This document shows, one piece after another, positions 25,910-35,337 of a stretch of DNA of 41,678 nt. A model generated the notes under the pieces. That model did not search any database, was not told where the DNA came from, and was given only the letters and a program-made list of their open reading frames with translations. Within the stretch, counting starts at the first letter, position 1. Each line of letters opens with the position of its first letter. Where the stretch lies: positions 1 through 41,678 of the forward strand of contig NZ_CALUYG010000025.1 in NCBI RefSeq assembly GCF_944324935.1, read 5' to 3'. This DNA is from an uncultured Desulfovibrio sp. GTDB lineage: Bacteria; Desulfobacterota; Desulfovibrionia; Desulfovibrionales; Desulfovibrionaceae. A program made the position numbers and the translations under genes.

Positions 25910-26135
25910 GGTCGTCGAACTCGCTGGAGGTTAAAGACATGACTGGGAGAAGACCCGATGTCGCAAAGTCTTTTTTTATATCCCGAACAGCGGCAAAAGT
26001 CCACATTGCCGGGCCGGCGGCAGGCAGGGCGCGGAACAGTCTGCCGCCGGCGCGCATCCGCTGTTGACAGTTCGCCGTATTGCTGCTCTGGTAAATAAAT
26101 CATTACCTTTCGCACGAAGCAGACAGGAACCCAAC

Positions 26136-27059
26136 ATGAGCATCCCCAAATACAATGAGCTGTACAGGCCGCTCCTGGAATGCATCAGGGACGGACGACC
26201 TCGCACGACGGCGGAACTTGAAGAAGGACTGGCCAAACGATTTTCCCTGACCGACGCGGAACGGCAGGAGCGCCTTGCAGGTGGCACATTGACGTTTTGC
26301 GGCAGAATCGGCTGGGCGCGCACCTATCTCAAGAAGGCGGGGCTTGTAACTTCACCCAAACGCGGGACCGTGCAGATCACGCCGGAGGGCAAGGCCGCCG
26401 TGGATGACGACGGGCTGCATATCGACAACGCCTATCTTGCCACCTTCCCCTCCTTTGCGGAATTCCAGAAAGGCGGACAAGCCGCCACCAGCGCGGGAAC
26501 CGCCCCCACCGCCGCAACGGATGATGAGGACAGCCCACAGGACAGCCTCGACAGAGCCTATGCCCGCATACGGCAAACCCTTGTGGAAGACGTCCTGGCG
26601 GAGATCATGCGGCAACCGCCCGTGTTCTTCGAGCAACTCGTGGTGCGCCTGCTCCAGGTCATGGGGTACGGAGGTTCTCTGGAAAATGCGGGGATCGTCA
26701 CCCGCGCATCGGGCGATGAGGGTATTGACGGCATCGTCAAACAGGACAAGCTCGGCTTTGATCAAATCTCTATCCAGGCCAAGCGCTGGGATACCTCGGC
26801 CAGTGTCGGCCGACCGGACATCCAGAAATTCGTGGGCGCCCTTGCCGGGCAGGGAGCCACACGCGGCCTCTTTGTGACCACCGCCAGATTTTCCGAAGAG
26901 GCGTACGCCTATGCCCGCAAGCAGCACACCACAAAAATCGTGCTTGTGGACGGACAGACGCTGGCAGGACTTATGATCGATCACAATCTGGGGGTGACGC
27001 CCATAGCCCGTTACGAAATCAAGCGTATCGATTCGGATTTCTTTGCCGATACGGAATGA
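26136..27059 (+). CDS. mrr: Mrr-type restriction endonuclease
   Basis: Type IV (modification-dependent) DNA endonuclease of 307 residues. An N-terminal winged-helix Mrr_N domain covers about 5-90 and a linker rich in Ala, Thr and Pro covers 110-135. The C-terminal catalytic domain has the PD-(D/E)xK site as GDEGIDGI (Asp198) and ISIQAKRW (Gln214, Lys216). Mrr enzymes cut methylated foreign DNA. There is no partner methylase gene nearby, as expected for type IV. The start at 26136 has AGGAA 6 bases upstream. The neighbouring 226 and 580 bp are sparse and AT-richer in places, so the gene may be a transferred defence locus; this is inference. Confidence 0.93.
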   Translation: MSIPKYNELYRPLLECIRDGRPRTTAELEEGLAKRFSLTDAERQERLAGGTLTFCGRIGWARTYLKKAGLVTSPKRGTVQITPEGKAAVDDDGLHIDNAYLATFPSFAEFQKGGQAATSAGTAPTAATDDEDSPQDSLDRAYARIRQTLVEDVLAEIMRQPPVFFEQLVVRLLQVMGYGGSLENAGIVTRASGDEGIDGIVKQDKLGFDQISIQAKRWDTSASVGRPDIQKFVGALAGQGATRGLFVTTARFSEEAYAYARKQHTTKIVLVDGQTLAGLMIDHNLGVTPIARYEIKRIDSDFFADTE

Positions 27060-27640: not shown

Positions 27641-28780
27641 CTACAGGGCCGCGCCGATGATCTCCCCGAACTCGCGGCAGCCCACCTCGCGGGAGCCGCT
27701 GACCTGATCGGCAAGGTCCACGGTGACGGCGCGTCCGGCAATGGCCTTGCTCATGGCCGAACGGATGCGCTCCGCCGCCGCCGCATAGCCCATATGCTCC
27801 AGCATGAGCGCCCCGCAGAGGATGACGCTGCCGGGATTGGCCTTGTCCTGCCCGGCGATGGTGGGCGCCGTGCCGTGCGTGGCCTCGAAGAAGGCCAGGG
27901 AGTCGGACATGTTCACGCCCGGCGCAAGACCGAGCCCCCCCACCTGCGCGGCCAGCGCGTCGGAGAGATAATCCCCGTTGAGGTTGGGCGTGGCGATGAC
28001 GTGATACTGTTCGGGATGGAGGAGCGCCTCCTGGAACATGGCGTCGGCGATGCGGTCCTTGACCACCAGCCGGCCGGGCACGGCTTCCTTTTCCGTGCAG
28101 GTCCGTTCGCCGAATTCGCGCGTCGCCACATCATAGCCCCACTGGCGGAAGCCGCCCTCGGTGAACTTCATAATGTTGCCCTTGTGCACCAGCGTCAGGG
28201 AGGGCTGGCCGGTATCCAGCGCGTAGCGCAGGGCGCGCCGCACGAGGCGCTCCGAACCAAAGGCGCTCATGGGCTTGATGCCCACCGCGGCGTCCTCGCG
28301 GATCTTGCCCACGCCGAACTCGTCACGCAGAAAGGCGATGAGCTTTTTCGCTTCCGGGGTCTCGGCGGCGTATTCGATGCCGGCGTACACATCTTCCGTA
28401 TTTTCCCGGAAGATGGTCATATTGACCTTTTCAGGATGCTTGACCGGCGTTTCCAGCCCGCTGAAATGCCGGATGGGCCGGATGCAGGCGTACAGGTCCA
28501 GCGTCTGCCGCAGGGTGACGTTGAGGCTGCGGCGGCCCGTGCCCACGGGCGTGCCCAGCGGGCCCTTGATGGCCACGGCGGCCCCGCGCAGGGCCTCCAG
28601 CGTGGCCTCGGGCAGGGGGCTGCCCGTTTCGGCCTCGGCCTTTTCCCCGGCCAGCAGCTCCACCCAGTCGATCCTGTCCTCGGACTCGCGGGCCAGCGCC
28701 GCGTCGATGACGGGCCGGGCCGCCTGCCAGATCTCCTTGCCGATGCCGTCGCCTTCTATCCAGTAAACCGTTTTTTTCAT
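27641..28780 (-). CDS. icd: Isocitrate dehydrogenase, probably NAD+-dependent
   Basis: Oxidative decarboxylation of isocitrate to 2-oxoglutarate in the cytoplasm; 379 residues, shorter than the 416 of E. coli. The isocitrate site is complete: GRRSLNVTLRQ carries the Ser and two Arg, and IFRENTEDVYAGIEY and the LVHKGNIMKFTEG segment with its Lys are kept. At the cofactor site HGTAPTIAGQDKANP replaces E. coli Lys344-Tyr345 with Thr-Ile, and AVTVDLADQV replaces Tyr391 and Arg395 with Val and Asp. These four residues bind the NADP 2'-phosphate, so NAD+ use is likely. The ATG at 28780 has GGAG 9 bases upstream; a GTG 15 bases earlier has no site. It follows the citrate-synthase-like gene by 41 bp. 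Confidence 0.92.
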   Translation of the reverse strand: MKKTVYWIEGDGIGKEIWQAARPVIDAALARESEDRIDWVELLAGEKAEAETGSPLPEATLEALRGAAVAIKGPLGTPVGTGRRSLNVTLRQTLDLYACIRPIRHFSGLETPVKHPEKVNMTIFRENTEDVYAGIEYAAETPEAKKLIAFLRDEFGVGKIREDAAVGIKPMSAFGSERLVRRALRYALDTGQPSLTLVHKGNIMKFTEGGFRQWGYDVATREFGERTCTEKEAVPGRLVVKDRIADAMFQEALLHPEQYHVIATPNLNGDYLSDALAAQVGGLGLAPGVNMSDSLAFFEATHGTAPTIAGQDKANPGSVILCGALMLEHMGYAAAAERIRSAMSKAIAGRAVTVDLADQVSGSREVGCREFGEIIGAAL

Positions 28781-28821
28781 CTGTCTTTTCTCCACTTGTT
28801 CGCAACCACCGCCCGGCGGGC

Positions 28822-30648
28822 TTATTCCTCGTCTTCGGAGTGCACTTCCTGCTTGAGGGCCTGGGCCCGCTGCAGGAGCTGTTCCAACTGGATGTCCGCA
28901 CCCAGCACGCCCACGATGTCATCCTTGGCATTGGTGACGGCGCAGGAAACGGTGATGACCAGCTTGCCCGTGAACTGGGACTGGTACACGTCCATGATGT
29001 GCAGGTCCCCGGTCTGCATGGGCATCTTGAACCACTCGCGCTGCGAGAAGTCATAGCCGATGGGCAGGGCCTTGTAACGCTCCTTGTAGGCCGGGTCGAT
29101 GATGGTGGAGCACTTGAGCTTGCCCTCGGTGTCCGTCAGATAAAGATACTGGATGAAGGGGAATTCCCGCGTGAAGGCATCCAGACGGGCGCAGGCGTGC
29201 TGGCCGAAGTCCTGAAGCTCCGGCTGCCGTGAGAGGCGGATGATGAGGTGGGCCGCCAGCTCGCCCGCCAGCTGCTTCATGTGGTCGAATTCGGTCACGA
29301 AGAGCTCGGGCATGAACTTCTGGGCCAGCGCCTCCATCTCGTCGTGGGACATGCTGGTGGTGCGGCCGTTCTCGTACAGGGCCACGATGGCGTCGTAGAT
29401 GCGGCCCACGGCGGGGTGCTTCTTGGAGACCTGCTTTTCCGGGGGCAGACGCAGATTGACGTTGAGCCAGTAGGCCACGCCCGCGCGCCCGGTCTTGTCG
29501 GTGATGATGATGGGCACGGGCCGGCCCAGCAGGCGCGTGGTGTCGAAGATGTTGTAGATCTCTTCGTTCTTGGCCAGGCCGTCGGCATGCACGCCCGCGC
29601 TGGTGGCGTTGAAGTCGCGCCCCACGAAAGGATAGTTGTAGGGGATGCGGTAATTGAGCTCCTTCTCGAAGAACTCGGCCACTTCGGCAAGGATGGTGGT
29701 GTCGGCGGCGGCATCGTCCCCGGTGAGGGAGATGTATTCCACGAGCAGTGCTTCCAGCGGCGTATTGCCCGTGCGCTCGCCAAAACCGAAGAGCGTGCTG
29801 TTGACCGCGCCGCAGCCGTAGAGCCAGGCCGTCACGCCGTTGACGAGCACCTTGTGGAAGTCGTTGTGGCCGTGCCATTCCAGCCACTGGCCCGGCACGC
29901 CCGCCTCATCGGTAAAGGCGCGGACGATGCGCTGCACCGAGCGCGGCAGGCCGGCTCCGGGGTAGGGCACGCCGTAGCCCATGGTGTCGCAAAGGCGGAT
30001 CTTCACCGGCATGCCGCTCTGATGGGAGAGCTCCATGAGCCGCTGGGCCAGCGGCAGGCAGAATCCGTAGATGTCGGCCCGGGTCACGTCCTCGAAATGG
30101 CAGCGCGGGATGATGCCCCATTCCAGCGCCTGTTCGGCGAGCCCCACATACATATCCAGCGCCTGCTGGCGGGTCTTGCCGAGTTTCAGGAAGATGTGGT
30201 AGTCCGACACGCTGGTCAGCATGCCGGTCTCGTCGAAATCCATGTCGCGGGCCAGCTTGAGGTCTTCCTTGTTGGCCCGGATCCAGGCCGTCACCCGCGG
30301 GAAGCGGTAGCCGCGCGCCCGACAGACGTCGATGCACTTGCGGTCCTTGGCCGAGTAAAGAAAGAATTCCGAAGCCGTGATGAGCCCGCTCTTGCCGCCG
30401 AGACGGTGCAGGAAGTCGAACATCTTCGCTACCTGCTTGACCGTATACGGCGGACGGGCCTGCTGGCCGTCACGGAAGGTCGTATCGGTGATGCGCATCT
30501 GCTCGGCCGGTCGCGGCGCAAGCAGCACGTCGTCAAAGGCGGTACGGCAAATGCTCGTATAGGGAAAGAGATCCCGGTAGAGCTGCGGGTGCTCCACATC
30601 CTGCAACGGAAGCGGGCGATTGCCGCTGGTCTGATAGATGATGCTCAT
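28822..30648 (-). CDS. Re-citrate-synthase-like HMGL enzyme fused to a Cache sensor domain
   Basis: About 608 residues. Residues 45-480 form a DRE-TIM metallolyase (HMGL/LeuA-like): metal and catalytic motif DTTFRDGQQ at 55-63, CDTMGYG at 220-226 and the metal-binding HGH at 259-261. NATSAGVHADGLAKNEEIYN at 347-366 is the LeuA-type signature. DGQQARPPYTV and SEFFLYSAKD recall clostridial Re-citrate synthase, which condenses oxaloacetate with acetyl-CoA. The adjacent icd supports that call; homocitrate or isopropylmalate synthase remain alternatives. Residues about 490-595 (YLYLTDTEGK, FSQREWFKMP, VGVLGADI) are a Cache/PDC domain, normally an extracellular ligand sensor, here without any membrane helix. 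Starts at 30654 or 30699 are possible. I prefer 30648 because GAGG lies 6 bases upstream and the 30699 extension uses rare TTA codons over a hairpin. Confidence 0.85.
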   Translation of the reverse strand: MSIIYQTSGNRPLPLQDVEHPQLYRDLFPYTSICRTAFDDVLLAPRPAEQMRITDTTFRDGQQARPPYTVKQVAKMFDFLHRLGGKSGLITASEFFLYSAKDRKCIDVCRARGYRFPRVTAWIRANKEDLKLARDMDFDETGMLTSVSDYHIFLKLGKTRQQALDMYVGLAEQALEWGIIPRCHFEDVTRADIYGFCLPLAQRLMELSHQSGMPVKIRLCDTMGYGVPYPGAGLPRSVQRIVRAFTDEAGVPGQWLEWHGHNDFHKVLVNGVTAWLYGCGAVNSTLFGFGERTGNTPLEALLVEYISLTGDDAAADTTILAEVAEFFEKELNYRIPYNYPFVGRDFNATSAGVHADGLAKNEEIYNIFDTTRLLGRPVPIIITDKTGRAGVAYWLNVNLRLPPEKQVSKKHPAVGRIYDAIVALYENGRTTSMSHDEMEALAQKFMPELFVTEFDHMKQLAGELAAHLIIRLSRQPELQDFGQHACARLDAFTREFPFIQYLYLTDTEGKLKCSTIIDPAYKERYKALPIGYDFSQREWFKMPMQTGDLHIMDVYQSQFTGKLVITVSCAVTNAKDDIVGVLGADIQLEQLLQRAQALKQEVHSEDEE

Positions 30649-30659
30649 GGCCATCCTCT

Positions 30660-30673: not shown

Positions 30674-30846
30674 GGCTGCAATAATAAGGTATCCAGCATA
30701 GCCGCTTCCTTTCGTGGCGTAAAGTCGTCCGCATCCCCTCGTCGGCGGCGGGGCTTGCCAGATTGGCAAAAATGCCCGATTATGAGCAGTTGGAGCGACG
30801 GAAAAAATGTGCCGCGCAGCGAGCGCGCGACGTGAGGGGAGGTTCT

Positions 30847-33009
30847 ATGTCCGCGTGTGTGCAGTATCCCGGCCCGGGCTGTATTGTGGAATTTCTGGAG
30901 GGCAATGCCGTCCATCTGGCCCTCGTCACCGAGGAGGGGGGAGGCAAGGTCCGCCTCCTCCTGCCCAATCGCCGCGAAACGCGCCTGGGGACATCACGCC
31001 TGCTGCCCTGGGCCGGGCCGCAGCTGCCGGGCCCCCTGCCCGGACGAGAGGAAGCCGTCCGCCTTCTGGAGGAATGCCGCAAGCGCCGCGAGGCGCTGGC
31101 CGCCGAGGTCCCGGTGGCCGACCTCTGGGAGATGGCCCAGGGAGAGCTGGCCGAAGCCCCCGCCCAGTGGTTCGCCGAACTCTCCGGCAGCGATCCCGAC
31201 GTGGACAGCATCGCGGCCCACGGCCGGGCCCTGCTGACCTGCAAGAGCCATTTCCGCTTCCAGCCGCCCGTCTTCCAGATCTTCGATGCCGAGACCGTGG
31301 AACGACGGCTGCACGAGCAGCAGGAACGCGAAGAGCGCGAGGCGCTCACCGTGGGCGGCGCGACCTTCTTCCGCCTGCTCTGGGATGTGGCCTGCAAAAA
31401 GCGTCCGCTGCCTCCGCCCCCCGATGCCGAAGGGCACGGCGGCTCGCCGGAATGGCCCGCGCCGGAGGTGGCCCGCCGCCTGCGCAAGCTGCTCTTCGAC
31501 TGCATGGCCGACCCGGACAATCAGGAGCACGACACCCTCTGGCGCATGCTGACCAAGGGCCTGCCCGATGTGCCGCACCTGCCCGTCCAGCTGCTCATGG
31601 CCTGGGGCGAAGTGCCGCCGCATTACAATTTCTGGTTCGACCGCGCCGGTTACGAGCCCGGCGATCAGTGGTGGACGGCCTGGGCGGACGAGGTGGCGGC
31701 CTGCGTACGCCAAAGCCGCGAAATGCCGCTGGAACGCTGCGACCTGCCCTTCATCAGCATCGACAGCGCCAGCACCCGCGACGTTGACGACGCCTTTTAT
31801 CTGGAAGGCACGCCGGACGGCGGCTTCCTGCTGACGCTGGCCCTGGCCTGCCCGGCCCTGAGCTGGCCCTTCGGCTCCCCGCTGGACAAGGCCGTGCTGC
31901 GGCGCGGCACCAGCATCTATCTGCCTGAGGGCAACTGTCATATGCTGCCCGAGACCCTGGGCACGAACGACTTTTCCCTGCGGGCGGGCGAGGACAGGCC
32001 CGCCTTCTGCGTGCGCGTGGCCGTGGATGCGGAGGGCAACGCCGCTCCCTGCGAAGTCTTCACCGCCCGTGTGCGACTGGCCGCCAACCTCACCTATCAG
32101 GACGCACAGGCCGTCCTTGACGCCCGCCGGACGGACGCCCCTCTGCCGGACAACCCGGCCGCGACCTTTGCCGGGGAGCTCGTGCTGGCCCATGCCTTCG
32201 AGCGTGCCCGGCAGACGGCCCGCATCCGGGACGGGGCCGTGGTCATGGATCGCCCGGAACCGGTTATCCGGCTTGAGGGCGAAGGCGCACAGACCATCGT
32301 GCATCTGGAGCCCGGCGAAGTCTGCCCGGACAGCCAGTCCGCCGTGGCGGAGATGATGATCCTTGCCTCCGCCGCCGTGGCCGACTGGGCCGCCGCCCGG
32401 GACCTTCCCCTGCTGCACCGCACGCAGGACGTCGTCCTGCCGCGCGACTACGCCGGCGTCTGGACGCGCCCGGAAGACATGACCCGCGTCATGCGCGCGC
32501 TGGCCCCCTCCTCACTGGAGGTGCAGGCCCGCCCCCATGCGGCCCTCGGGCTGCCCCGTTACGCGCCCGTCACCTCCCCCCTGCGGCGCTATCCCGATCT
32601 GGTGAACGAAGCGCAGATCGTCCATTATTTGCAGCACGGCGTCCCCCGCTGGACGGCCGACGCCCTGGCGGAGCTGCTGGTCAGACTCAATGCGGCCCTG
32701 GAAGCCGCCGGACAGATACAGCGTTTCCGGCCCCGCTACTGGAAGCTGCTCTTCTTCCGGCAGCAGGGCGACAAGGTCTGGTGGCCCGGCGTCATCACCG
32801 AGGAGAATGACGCCTTCGCCAGCGTCAGCCTGCCGGATCAGGGGATCTTCCTGCGCGGCAAGCGGCGGCAGTTCGACGAACGCGCCTGCCCCGGCACGGC
32901 CGTGGAGGTACGCATCGGCCGGGTCAATCCGCTGTACAATGAAATCATGCTGCTGGAAGCGCGTACTGCCGACTGCCGGCCCGCGCCCTACGAGGAGATG
33001 CCTTCATGA
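30847..33009 (+). CDS. RNase II/RNB-family exoribonuclease
   Basis: Predicted 3'-5' exoribonuclease of 720 residues. The RNB catalytic domain covers about 298-600. [18 protein letters not shown] has the four metal-binding aspartates (306, 312, 314, 315), and [18 protein letters not shown] carries the conserved arginine. The C-terminus (about 630-700) looks like a degenerate S1 RNA-binding domain. The first 290 residues do not read as the paired cold-shock domains of E. coli RNase II or R; they look like a single small barrel followed by helical and winged-helix-like parts, as in the bacterial/organellar RNB variants. The start at 30847 has GAGGGGAGG 5 bases upstream. The stop overlaps plsY by 4 bp. 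It diverges from the citrate-synthase-like gene. Confidence 0.88.
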
Positions 33010-33631: not shown

Positions 33632-33670
33632 GGAAAAGGGGGGCCGTTTTGCGGAGCGCTCCCCTTTTCC
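33632..33670 (+). terminator. Hairpin after plsY
   Basis: GGAAAAGGGG pairs perfectly with CCCCTTTTCC over a 19-base loop, 33 bp past the plsY stop. The following bases CCTTT give only a weak T-run. Confidence 0.45.
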
Positions 33671-33800
33671 CCTTTGCACCCTTCCCTTCCTCAACGACCC
33701 GGGCCCGGCGTCGGGCGGCGTGGGCCGGCAGGAGCCCGCGCCTCCGCCGGCGACAGGAAGGCGGCGCATGCCGTCGCCATGACGACATGGGAACCGAAAA

Positions 33801-33842
33801 AGCCCGTCGGCCGCCGCCTCGACAAACGCGCGCCGACGGGCT
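33801..33842. promoter_or_regulatory. Hairpin in the leader of thrC
   Basis: AGCCCGTCGGC pairs perfectly with GCCGACGGGCT over a 20-base loop, ending 49 bp before the thrC start. ATTTT follows closely on the plus strand, and TTTTT on the minus strand. It could be a terminator or an attenuator in front of thrC. Confidence 0.45.
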
Positions 33843-33891
33843 ACATTTTCTCCGCCGTTTCCCGGCAGTTTTTCGGCACAAGGAGCCCTTT

Positions 33892-35337
33892 GTGAACAAC
33901 AGCGACTTTCCCGCCTATCGCGGACACATGGAATATGTCTGCCTGTCCTGCGGACAGCGCTATCCCGCGGACAGCCTTCTTTACACCTGTCCGCAGTGCG
34001 GCGGCGTCTTCCTTCTGGAGAATACGGATTTTGCCCATTTGCGTACCACGGACGGCCCCACCTGGCGCAAGCGCTTCGACAGCCGGGCCGCCGCCCGCAG
34101 TACGGCCCTGCGCGGCATCTTCCGCTATTATGAACTGATGGCCCCGCTCATGGACGAGGAGGACATCGTCTACCTCGGCGAAGGGATCACCCCCATCGTT
34201 GAGGCCGCCGCCCCGCTGCGGGATGCGGTGGGCGTCCCCTTTGCCTACAAGAATGACGGCCAGAACCCCAGCGCCTCCTTCAAGGACCGCGGCATGGCCT
34301 GCGCCTTCAGCTACCTGAAATGGCTCTGCCGCCGCCACGACTGGGACGAGGTGCTCACCGTCTGCGCGTCCACGGGGGACACGTCCGCCGCTGCCGCGCT
34401 CTACGCCGCCTATGTGGGCGCGCCGCTCAAGAGCGTCGTGCTGCTGCCGCACGGCAAGGTGACGCCGCAGCAGCTTTCCCAGCCGCTGGGCAGCGGCGCC
34501 ACCGTGCTGGAACTGCCCGGCGTGTTCGACGACTGCATGAAGGTGGTGGAGCTGCTGGCCGAGAACTACCGCGTGGCCCTGCTCAACTCCAAGAACAGCT
34601 GGCGCATCCTCGGGCAGGAATCCTATGCCTATGAGGTGGCCCAGTGGTACAGCTGGGACGTGGACGGGCTCTGCCTCTTCGTGCCCGTCGGCAATGCGGG
34701 CAACATCACGGCCGTCATGTCCGGTTTCCTCAAGATGTATGATCTGGGCATCATCACGAGCCTGCCGCGCATCTTCGGCGTGCAGTCCAGCCATGCCGAC
34801 CCGGTCTACCGCTACTATGCCGCGCCGGAAGGCGAGCGCGTCTGGCAGCCGGTGACTGTCCGTCCCAGCGTGGCGCAGGCGGCCATGATCGGCAATCCGG
34901 TCTCCATGCCGCGCGTACGGCGTCTGGCGGAGCGCTTCGTGGAGGCCGGCGGCGAGCGGGCCTTCCAGGTGGTGCAGGTCACGGAACAGCAGATCATGGA
35001 CGCCATGATCGAGGCCAACCGCCACGGCCACATCGCCTGCACCCAGGGCGGCGAGTGTCTGGCCGGGCTGCGCAATGCCCGGACGCTGGGCCTTGTGGGC
35101 GACAACGAGCATGCGGTGCTGGACGCCACGGCGCATGCGCTCAAGTTCTCCGGCTTTCAGGATATGTACTTTACCGACGCCTTCCCGCCCGCCTATGAAG
35201 TGCGGCCGGACGTGCGCCTGGCCAACGCCCCCGAACTCCTGTTGCCGCAGGAAGCCCGCGAGGGGCGGGATGTGGCCGAGTTCGCCCGTCTCGGGGCCGA
35301 GGCCGTGGTGCGGCGGCTGGGCCTGGCCCGGCGCTGA
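33892..35337 (+). CDS. thrC: Threonine synthase with N-terminal zinc ribbon
   Basis: PLP enzyme that turns O-phosphohomoserine into threonine and phosphate; 481 residues. The N-terminus has a rubredoxin-like zinc ribbon with Cys17, Cys20, Cys33 and Cys36. The PLP lysine is Lys131 in NPSASFKDRGM, the phosphate loop is in VPVGNAGNITA, and CASTGDTSAAAA is typical of the ThrC family. The start is a GTG at 33892 with AAGGAG 6 bases upstream; an ATG 12 codons later would still keep the zinc ribbon. Homoserine dehydrogenase for the same pathway lies at 40306, but homoserine kinase is not in the window. Confidence 0.94.
   Translation: MNNSDFPAYRGHMEYVCLSCGQRYPADSLLYTCPQCGGVFLLENTDFAHLRTTDGPTWRKRFDSRAAARSTALRGIFRYYELMAPLMDEEDIVYLGEGITPIVEAAAPLRDAVGVPFAYKNDGQNPSASFKDRGMACAFSYLKWLCRRHDWDEVLTVCASTGDTSAAAALYAAYVGAPLKSVVLLPHGKVTPQQLSQPLGSGATVLELPGVFDDCMKVVELLAENYRVALLNSKNSWRILGQESYAYEVAQWYSWDVDGLCLFVPVGNAGNITAVMSGFLKMYDLGIITSLPRIFGVQSSHADPVYRYYAAPEGERVWQPVTVRPSVAQAAMIGNPVSMPRVRRLAERFVEAGGERAFQVVQVTEQQIMDAMIEANRHGHIACTQGGECLAGLRNARTLGLVGDNEHAVLDATAHALKFSGFQDMYFTDAFPPAYEVRPDVRLANAPELLLPQEAREGRDVAEFARLGAEAVVRRLGLARR

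Follow-up and report, generated by a model that had tools for sequence, protein, structure and literature searches.

A candidate Re-citrate synthase fused to a cytoplasmic Cache domain in an uncultured Desulfovibrio sp., and its possible control by amino acids

An uncultured Desulfovibrio sp. encodes a 610-residue protein (28822..30654, minus strand) that joins a catalytic core of the Re-citrate synthase type to a C-terminal Cache domain, as recognized from the open reading frame, Pfam matches and AlphaFold2 models; positions refer to the window, the whole 41,678-nucleotide stretch of DNA analysed. The fusion is spread over many genomes, no Si-citrate synthase was found in those of its family that carry it, and the pocket of its Cache domain is conserved. 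On balance, the protein is probably a Re-type citrate synthase in which an internalized Cache serves as an allosteric domain for amino-acid feedback. Re-citrate synthases and Cache domains are each known; to judge from the literature searched (mostly papers readable without subscription), which contained no description of a Cache domain on a Re-citrate synthase or of its role, their joining appears to be undescribed. Others may have noticed the fusion, since the architecture is visible in any domain database.

The originally predicted open reading frame is present on the minus strand, its start at 30648 being the second ATG; the first is at 30654, and the stop codon ends at 28822. An artefact or frame error was rejected, as the reading frame stays open and is conserved throughout the window's family. 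The catalytic core with its helical subdomain (residues 53-453; 29296..30498, minus strand) is an HMGL-like barrel delimited by motifs, Pfam and the ends of Cache-less relatives; residues 53-327 match the Pfam family HMGL-like (E = 8.5e-28), and Foldseek searches with the whole model return homocitrate synthase 6ktq (E = 8e-24) and LeuA and its relatives. The core contains DTTFRDGQQ at residues 57-65 and HGHND at residues 261-265 (HGH, 261-263), the RDGQ and HxH motifs having their generally known roles in DRE-TIM metallolyases; F60-R61-D62-G63-Q64-Q65 and E259-W260-H261-G262-H263-N264-D265-F266 are invariant in a 60-row alignment. The original assignment of some 480 residues to a core of this type thus stands as regards the motifs and the HMGL-like match; its length takes in a linker, because Cache-less relatives end near residue 453 and the linking helix occupies residues 455-475 (29230..29292, minus strand; secondary structure of the AlphaFold2 model). 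The additional domain lies, as had been noted, where LeuA carries a regulatory one; no LeuA_dimer match was obtained among Pfam families at E up to 1.

The identity of this C-terminal domain as a Cache (PDC) domain (residues 485-600; 28855..29202, minus strand) is borne out by profile, model and fold comparison. Residues 500-593 match MCP-like_PDC_1 of Pfam (E = 4.2e-12; 46.9 bits, the cut-off being 27), and dCache_1 scores 44.5 bits on the protein, just below its cut-off of 45, and 46.3 bits, above it, in the genome search. Profile and model agree on a Cache/PDC fold with an N-terminal helix: residues 450-610 modelled alone reach a pLDDT of 91.8 and a pTM of 0.87, and the whole-protein AlphaFold2 model, built from the 60-row alignment, has a mean pLDDT of 89 with blocks of 80-94 across residues 481-600. 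Foldseek places the C-terminal piece with the sensor domains of KinD, Tlp3, PctA, CtaA, PctC, CitA and DctB, and the closest solved sensor domains by profile include those of the amino-acid receptors Tlp3, PctA, PctC and PctB. The predicted absence of a transmembrane helix agrees with a Kyte-Doolittle maximum of only 1.21 (19-residue span); values above 1.6 are reached by 26/26 control dCache receptors and, barely, by 7 of 136 fused proteins (highest 1.64).

The amino-acid-binding motif of Cache domains, given in passages of PMC11237719 as [YFWL]xxxx[RK]xW[YFW]-x13-17-[YFW]-x27-34-D, is fully matched by Y534, R539, W541, F542, Y557 and D587 (residues 534-587; 28894..29055, minus strand), with spacings of 14 and 29. 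According to the same passages, the first Y, the R and the W of the motif make contact at the carboxyl group, the second Y and the D at the amino group. The presence of F542 instead of Y is no objection, because an excerpt of PMC10104139 describes the aromatic residue following the W as structural. In the 60-row alignment W541, F542 and D587, which are three of the six invariant columns of the Cache domain, do not vary, and R539 hardly does. The comparison was extended to 127 distinct fused proteins (134 rows less 7 identical copies; proteins of 520 residues or fewer were left out, as were L110, which has a masked run, and L114 and L115, whose C-terminus is decayed; L087, cut by a contig end, was retained and scored as lacking the core motif). 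W541 is kept in all 127 and D587 in 126, the remaining protein having a gap. The motif minus its first aromatic residue is found in 115/127 of these proteins versus 6/26 control receptors, and the full motif in 41/127 (41/67 nearer and 0/60 farther relatives) versus 4/26; the controls are the dCache receptors of the window's and related genomes, 35 loci less 6 with unrecovered frames and 3 that were the fused enzyme itself. The position of Y534 is filled by 35 Y and 8 F among the 67 nearer relatives and mostly by E, K, D, S or T among the 60 farther ones, of which ten have R539 substituted, two of them by K. Because Y534 is not kept and the full motif is absent from far relatives, the ligand may differ between lineages. 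Among the other Cache proteins of the genome, three of seven have the core motif, one of these in full.

Several features of gene content point to the fusion as the source of citrate in the cell. Passages of PMC12016533 record Re-citrate synthase as the role of this enzyme family, which is the role proposed here and not a different one. No PF00285 citrate synthase was found in the genome (99.8% complete) by a search whose positive control matched in 13 of 14 genomes, and aconitase and isocitrate dehydrogenase are both present. Within the window's family, 80 of 198 genomes have a Si-citrate synthase, and none of the 101 fused-form genomes is among them (this count drew 198 genomes as against 199, so that one of the 101 is possibly outside it); all four genomes whose copy is short or decayed have one, and 17 of the 198 have neither enzyme. 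In the window's phylum (n = 395), both enzymes occur together in 41 genomes versus 105 expected, while 154 have this enzyme alone, 172 PF00285 alone and 28 neither; the counts for family and phylum are raw genome counts that ignore kinship, and some PF00285 proteins of the 41 genomes with both may be methylcitrate synthases. Since the fused form and Si-citrate synthase exclude each other in the family, it is most likely, as far as sequence comparison can tell, the fused enzyme that makes citrate in this cell, as a synthase of the Re type.

Directly downstream of the fusion gene lies a gene for an NADP-dependent isocitrate dehydrogenase (27641..28795, minus strand; profile match), 26 bases away if counted from its first possible start, a GTG, with an ATG five codons later. 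Across 68 fused loci (L039-L111), the recurrent flanking genes, each cluster being named from one representative, encode aspartyl-tRNA synthetase (34/68), histidyl-tRNA synthetase (21/68), aconitase (10/68) and isocitrate dehydrogenase (7/68), all four on the strand of the fusion gene; isocitrate dehydrogenase is immediately downstream in 7 of the 63 loci that extend 1500 bases or more on that side. Such neighbours are consistent with a housekeeping gene and indicate no ligand. Elsewhere in the window, the plus strand encodes a Mrr-type restriction endonuclease with an Mrr_N N-terminal domain and a catalytic domain (26067-27056), an RNB-domain ribonuclease that is the divergent neighbour of the citrate synthase gene (30766-33006), and a long frame for a PLP-dependent enzyme (33652-35334; PALP at residues 175-486 of 561), the first 170 residues of which have no assignment and may in part precede the true start.

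The survey of the fusion proposed with the original prediction found it to be common in the window's family: at a threshold of E below 1e-118 the enzyme occurs in 105 of 199 genomes, 101 of which are counted as fused (99 with a match running through the Cache, G081 with a match ending at residue 373, and G064 with the protein in two pieces with stops). The other four comprise two proteins ending at 449 residues and two whose C-terminal part has lost the motif. These divergent copies, without a Cache in L112 and L113 (G051 and G010) and with a decayed C-terminal domain in L114 and L115 (G015 and G055), all belong to genomes with a Si-citrate synthase and may have acquired another role. In the window's phylum, 195 of 395 genomes match the enzyme at a threshold of 1e-60, and in the best rows (E = 1.3e-213 or better) every match reaches residue 594 or further. 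A GTDB scan confirmed at least 588 loci, 80 of which were kept; among these 80, fused proteins occur under at least nine phylum labels beside the window's own (Nitrospirae, Spirochaetes, Elusimicrobia, Lentisphaerae, Omnitrophota, Fibrobacteres, Termititenax, Erginobacter and UBP15), the labels outside the window's phylum being those of the records, mostly metagenome assemblies. A recent or local fusion was rejected in view of this spread.

Cache-less forms predominate in a sample of Bacillota, the phylum of locus L107, in which 44 of 398 genomes match and 43 of the 44 have the Cache-less form; the best match spans the Cache only in G928, and the other matches end at residues 440-492. Some genomes of this sample (G790, G887, G909 and G930) hold three relatives each: two have the length of the short form, and the third, in a frame of about 330-345 residues, shares 40-42% identity with the query. 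For the Spirochaetia locus L069, a search of its phylum gave matches in 33 of 198 genomes (13 fused, 19 short and 1 cut by a contig end), and 2 of the 13 fused genomes additionally hold a short copy. On a tree of the catalytic core with 83 rows (61 long, 21 short and 1 decayed), the form label changes five times and short forms are mostly nested among long ones; its root is not trusted, because the only outgroup, the LeuA-like row L002, sits on a branch of length 10. Distances in the Cache part and in the core agree over 62 rows (r = 0.62, a value that none of 2000 permutations reached), and therefore both parts seem to have been mostly inherited together.

The DRE-TIM core is shared with the Re-citrate synthases of the Clostridium kluyveri and Syntrophus aciditrophicus type, reportedly the subject of Li 2007 and Kim 2013; the short forms of Bacillota are 45-61% identical to the window's protein (best match per genome) and, unlike it, have no Cache, one of the 44 positive genomes excepted. 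The Syntrophus enzyme is said to be a homotetramer of 72.9 kDa subunits, tag included. Four fused proteins from Syntrophales-labelled or closely grouped genomes have masses of 71.2-71.9 kDa, compared with 51.9 kDa for two short forms from Bacillota; because the mass reported for Syntrophus fits the fused and not the short form, the fused form has probably been assayed already as the Syntrophus enzyme. The Syntrophales-labelled fused proteins of fitting mass are about 50% identical to the window's protein. The Heliomicrobium protein HM1_2993 shares, according to passages of PMC12016533, about 28% identity with the enzymes of Syntrophus and C. kluyveri and groups with those of Clostridioides and Thermoanaerobacter as another kind. 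No regulation of Re-citrate synthase was described in the literature searched, and the passages on the enzyme mention neither such control nor a Cache domain.

The position of the extra domain and the catalytic superfamily are common to the fusion and to the LeuA, citramalate and homocitrate synthases. LeuA-type enzymes use their C-terminal domain for end-product feedback, and their LeuA_dimer and RAM regulatory domains are unrelated to Cache. The dCache_1AA receptors PctA, Tlp3 and CtaA resemble the fusion in the Cache fold and in motif residues at the published spacings; these receptors, however, have a double, extracytoplasmic Cache between two transmembrane helices, whereas the fusion has a single, cytoplasmic Cache attached to an enzyme. 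Its domain may act like dCache_1AA and is not classed as one, because it is single and no membrane helix accompanies it. YkuI_C and Diacid_rec are mainly intracellular, like the domain of the fusion, but are found on signalling or gene-regulation proteins and not on an enzyme of central metabolism. Passages of a Cache survey (PMC4822843) describe the families as mainly extracellular, YkuI_C and Diacid_rec excepted, with outputs in signal transduction, and a 2026 preprint (PMC12889525), as far as its passages go, still places Cache domains outside the cytoplasm; on intracellular Cache domains and on KinD with pyruvate, the literature searched gave nothing else of use.

Like the original prediction, we infer that the entry of carbon into the synthesis of 2-oxoglutarate is under allosteric control, and this idea gains strength from the missing Si-citrate synthase, the adjoining isocitrate dehydrogenase, the complementary distribution and the conserved pocket. 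In the mechanism envisaged, the ligand of the Cache pocket would be an alpha-amino acid, its carboxylate held by R539 and W541 and its ammonium group by Y557 and D587. An end product of the branch from citrate through isocitrate to 2-oxoglutarate, such as glutamate or a derivative (glutamine, proline or arginine), would be the likeliest candidate. The signal would pass via the helix at residues 455-475 to the helical subdomain beside the active site, and binding would lower citrate formation, a feedback like that of leucine on LeuA, through an unrelated sensor domain. An amino acid has about an even chance of being the ligand class; the glutamate family is a guess taken from the pathway, and inhibition rather than activation is the direction that we infer.

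The Cache of this Re-citrate synthase might instead regulate it by binding an organic acid (pyruvate, citrate, 2-oxoglutarate or malate) in feed-forward or feedback control, an unlikely reading that nevertheless merits weight. The sensor domain of KinD, for which structures with pyruvate and of an R131A mutant exist, is the best structural and second-best profile match; the best 50 matches further include CitA (citrate-bound entry), DctB and DcuS, the arginine on the carboxylate side being a common element, and the position of Y534 is often acidic or polar outside near relatives. R131 of KinD aligns with the R539 column, where the row of the mutant has alanine; KinD, however, has A in the D587 column and F for W541, both of which are kept in the fused proteins. 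The alanine of KinD therefore favours an amino-group ligand for the fusion, and an invariant acid facing the ligand is a better partner for an ammonium group than for a second carboxylate, although the argument from D587 is weakened because this residue sits within a stretch kept by other Cache domains too.

It is improbable that the domain has ceased to sense and serves enzyme assembly, as a dimer or tetramer. Cache-less forms exist in Bacillota and Spirochaetota, so that catalysis probably does not depend on the domain, and mean conservation over 101 sequences is lower in the Cache than in the core (0.56 versus 0.74); but the conservation of the Cache falls largely on the pocket motif, which pure assembly would not require. 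Most doubtful of all is a different product, homocitrate, citramalate or isopropylmalate, with the Si-citrate synthase pattern a coincidence of descent. The core does match, in each case far below the cut-off, NCBIfam models of synthases for isopropylmalate, citramalate and homocitrate and of a few aldolases, and the co-distribution counts leave relatedness aside. Against this, contig C1 of the genome carries a separate LeuA-like frame next to a separate frame of the aconitase family, which makes the fusion gene unlikely to be the leucine-pathway enzyme; the genome has isocitrate dehydrogenase and aconitase yet no other citrate synthase, and the exclusion of Si-citrate synthase is family-wide.

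With amino-acid feedback on a Re-citrate synthase as the preferred reading, a history can be sketched tentatively, at rather less than even confidence: an amino-acid sensor of a chemoreceptor may have moved early into the cytoplasm and joined a citrate synthase, so that an amino acid would directly throttle the step that opens glutamate synthesis in anaerobes of about ten phyla, the Cache having later been lost in Bacillota, lost or decayed beside Si-citrate synthase in four genomes within the window's family, and perhaps adapted to other ligands where Y534 and R539 have changed.

In these anaerobes the route to glutamate, glutamine, proline and arginine likely begins with Re-citrate synthase. 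If the proposed control is real, this would be the first enzyme of central metabolism regulated by a Cache domain, and an intracellular Cache on a metabolic enzyme would broaden the known roles of the largest family of extracellular bacterial sensors. The fusion would also offer a soluble, easily assayed system in which the ligand of a Cache domain is read as an enzyme rate, free of membranes, with the natural Cache-less enzymes serving as controls for the fused form.
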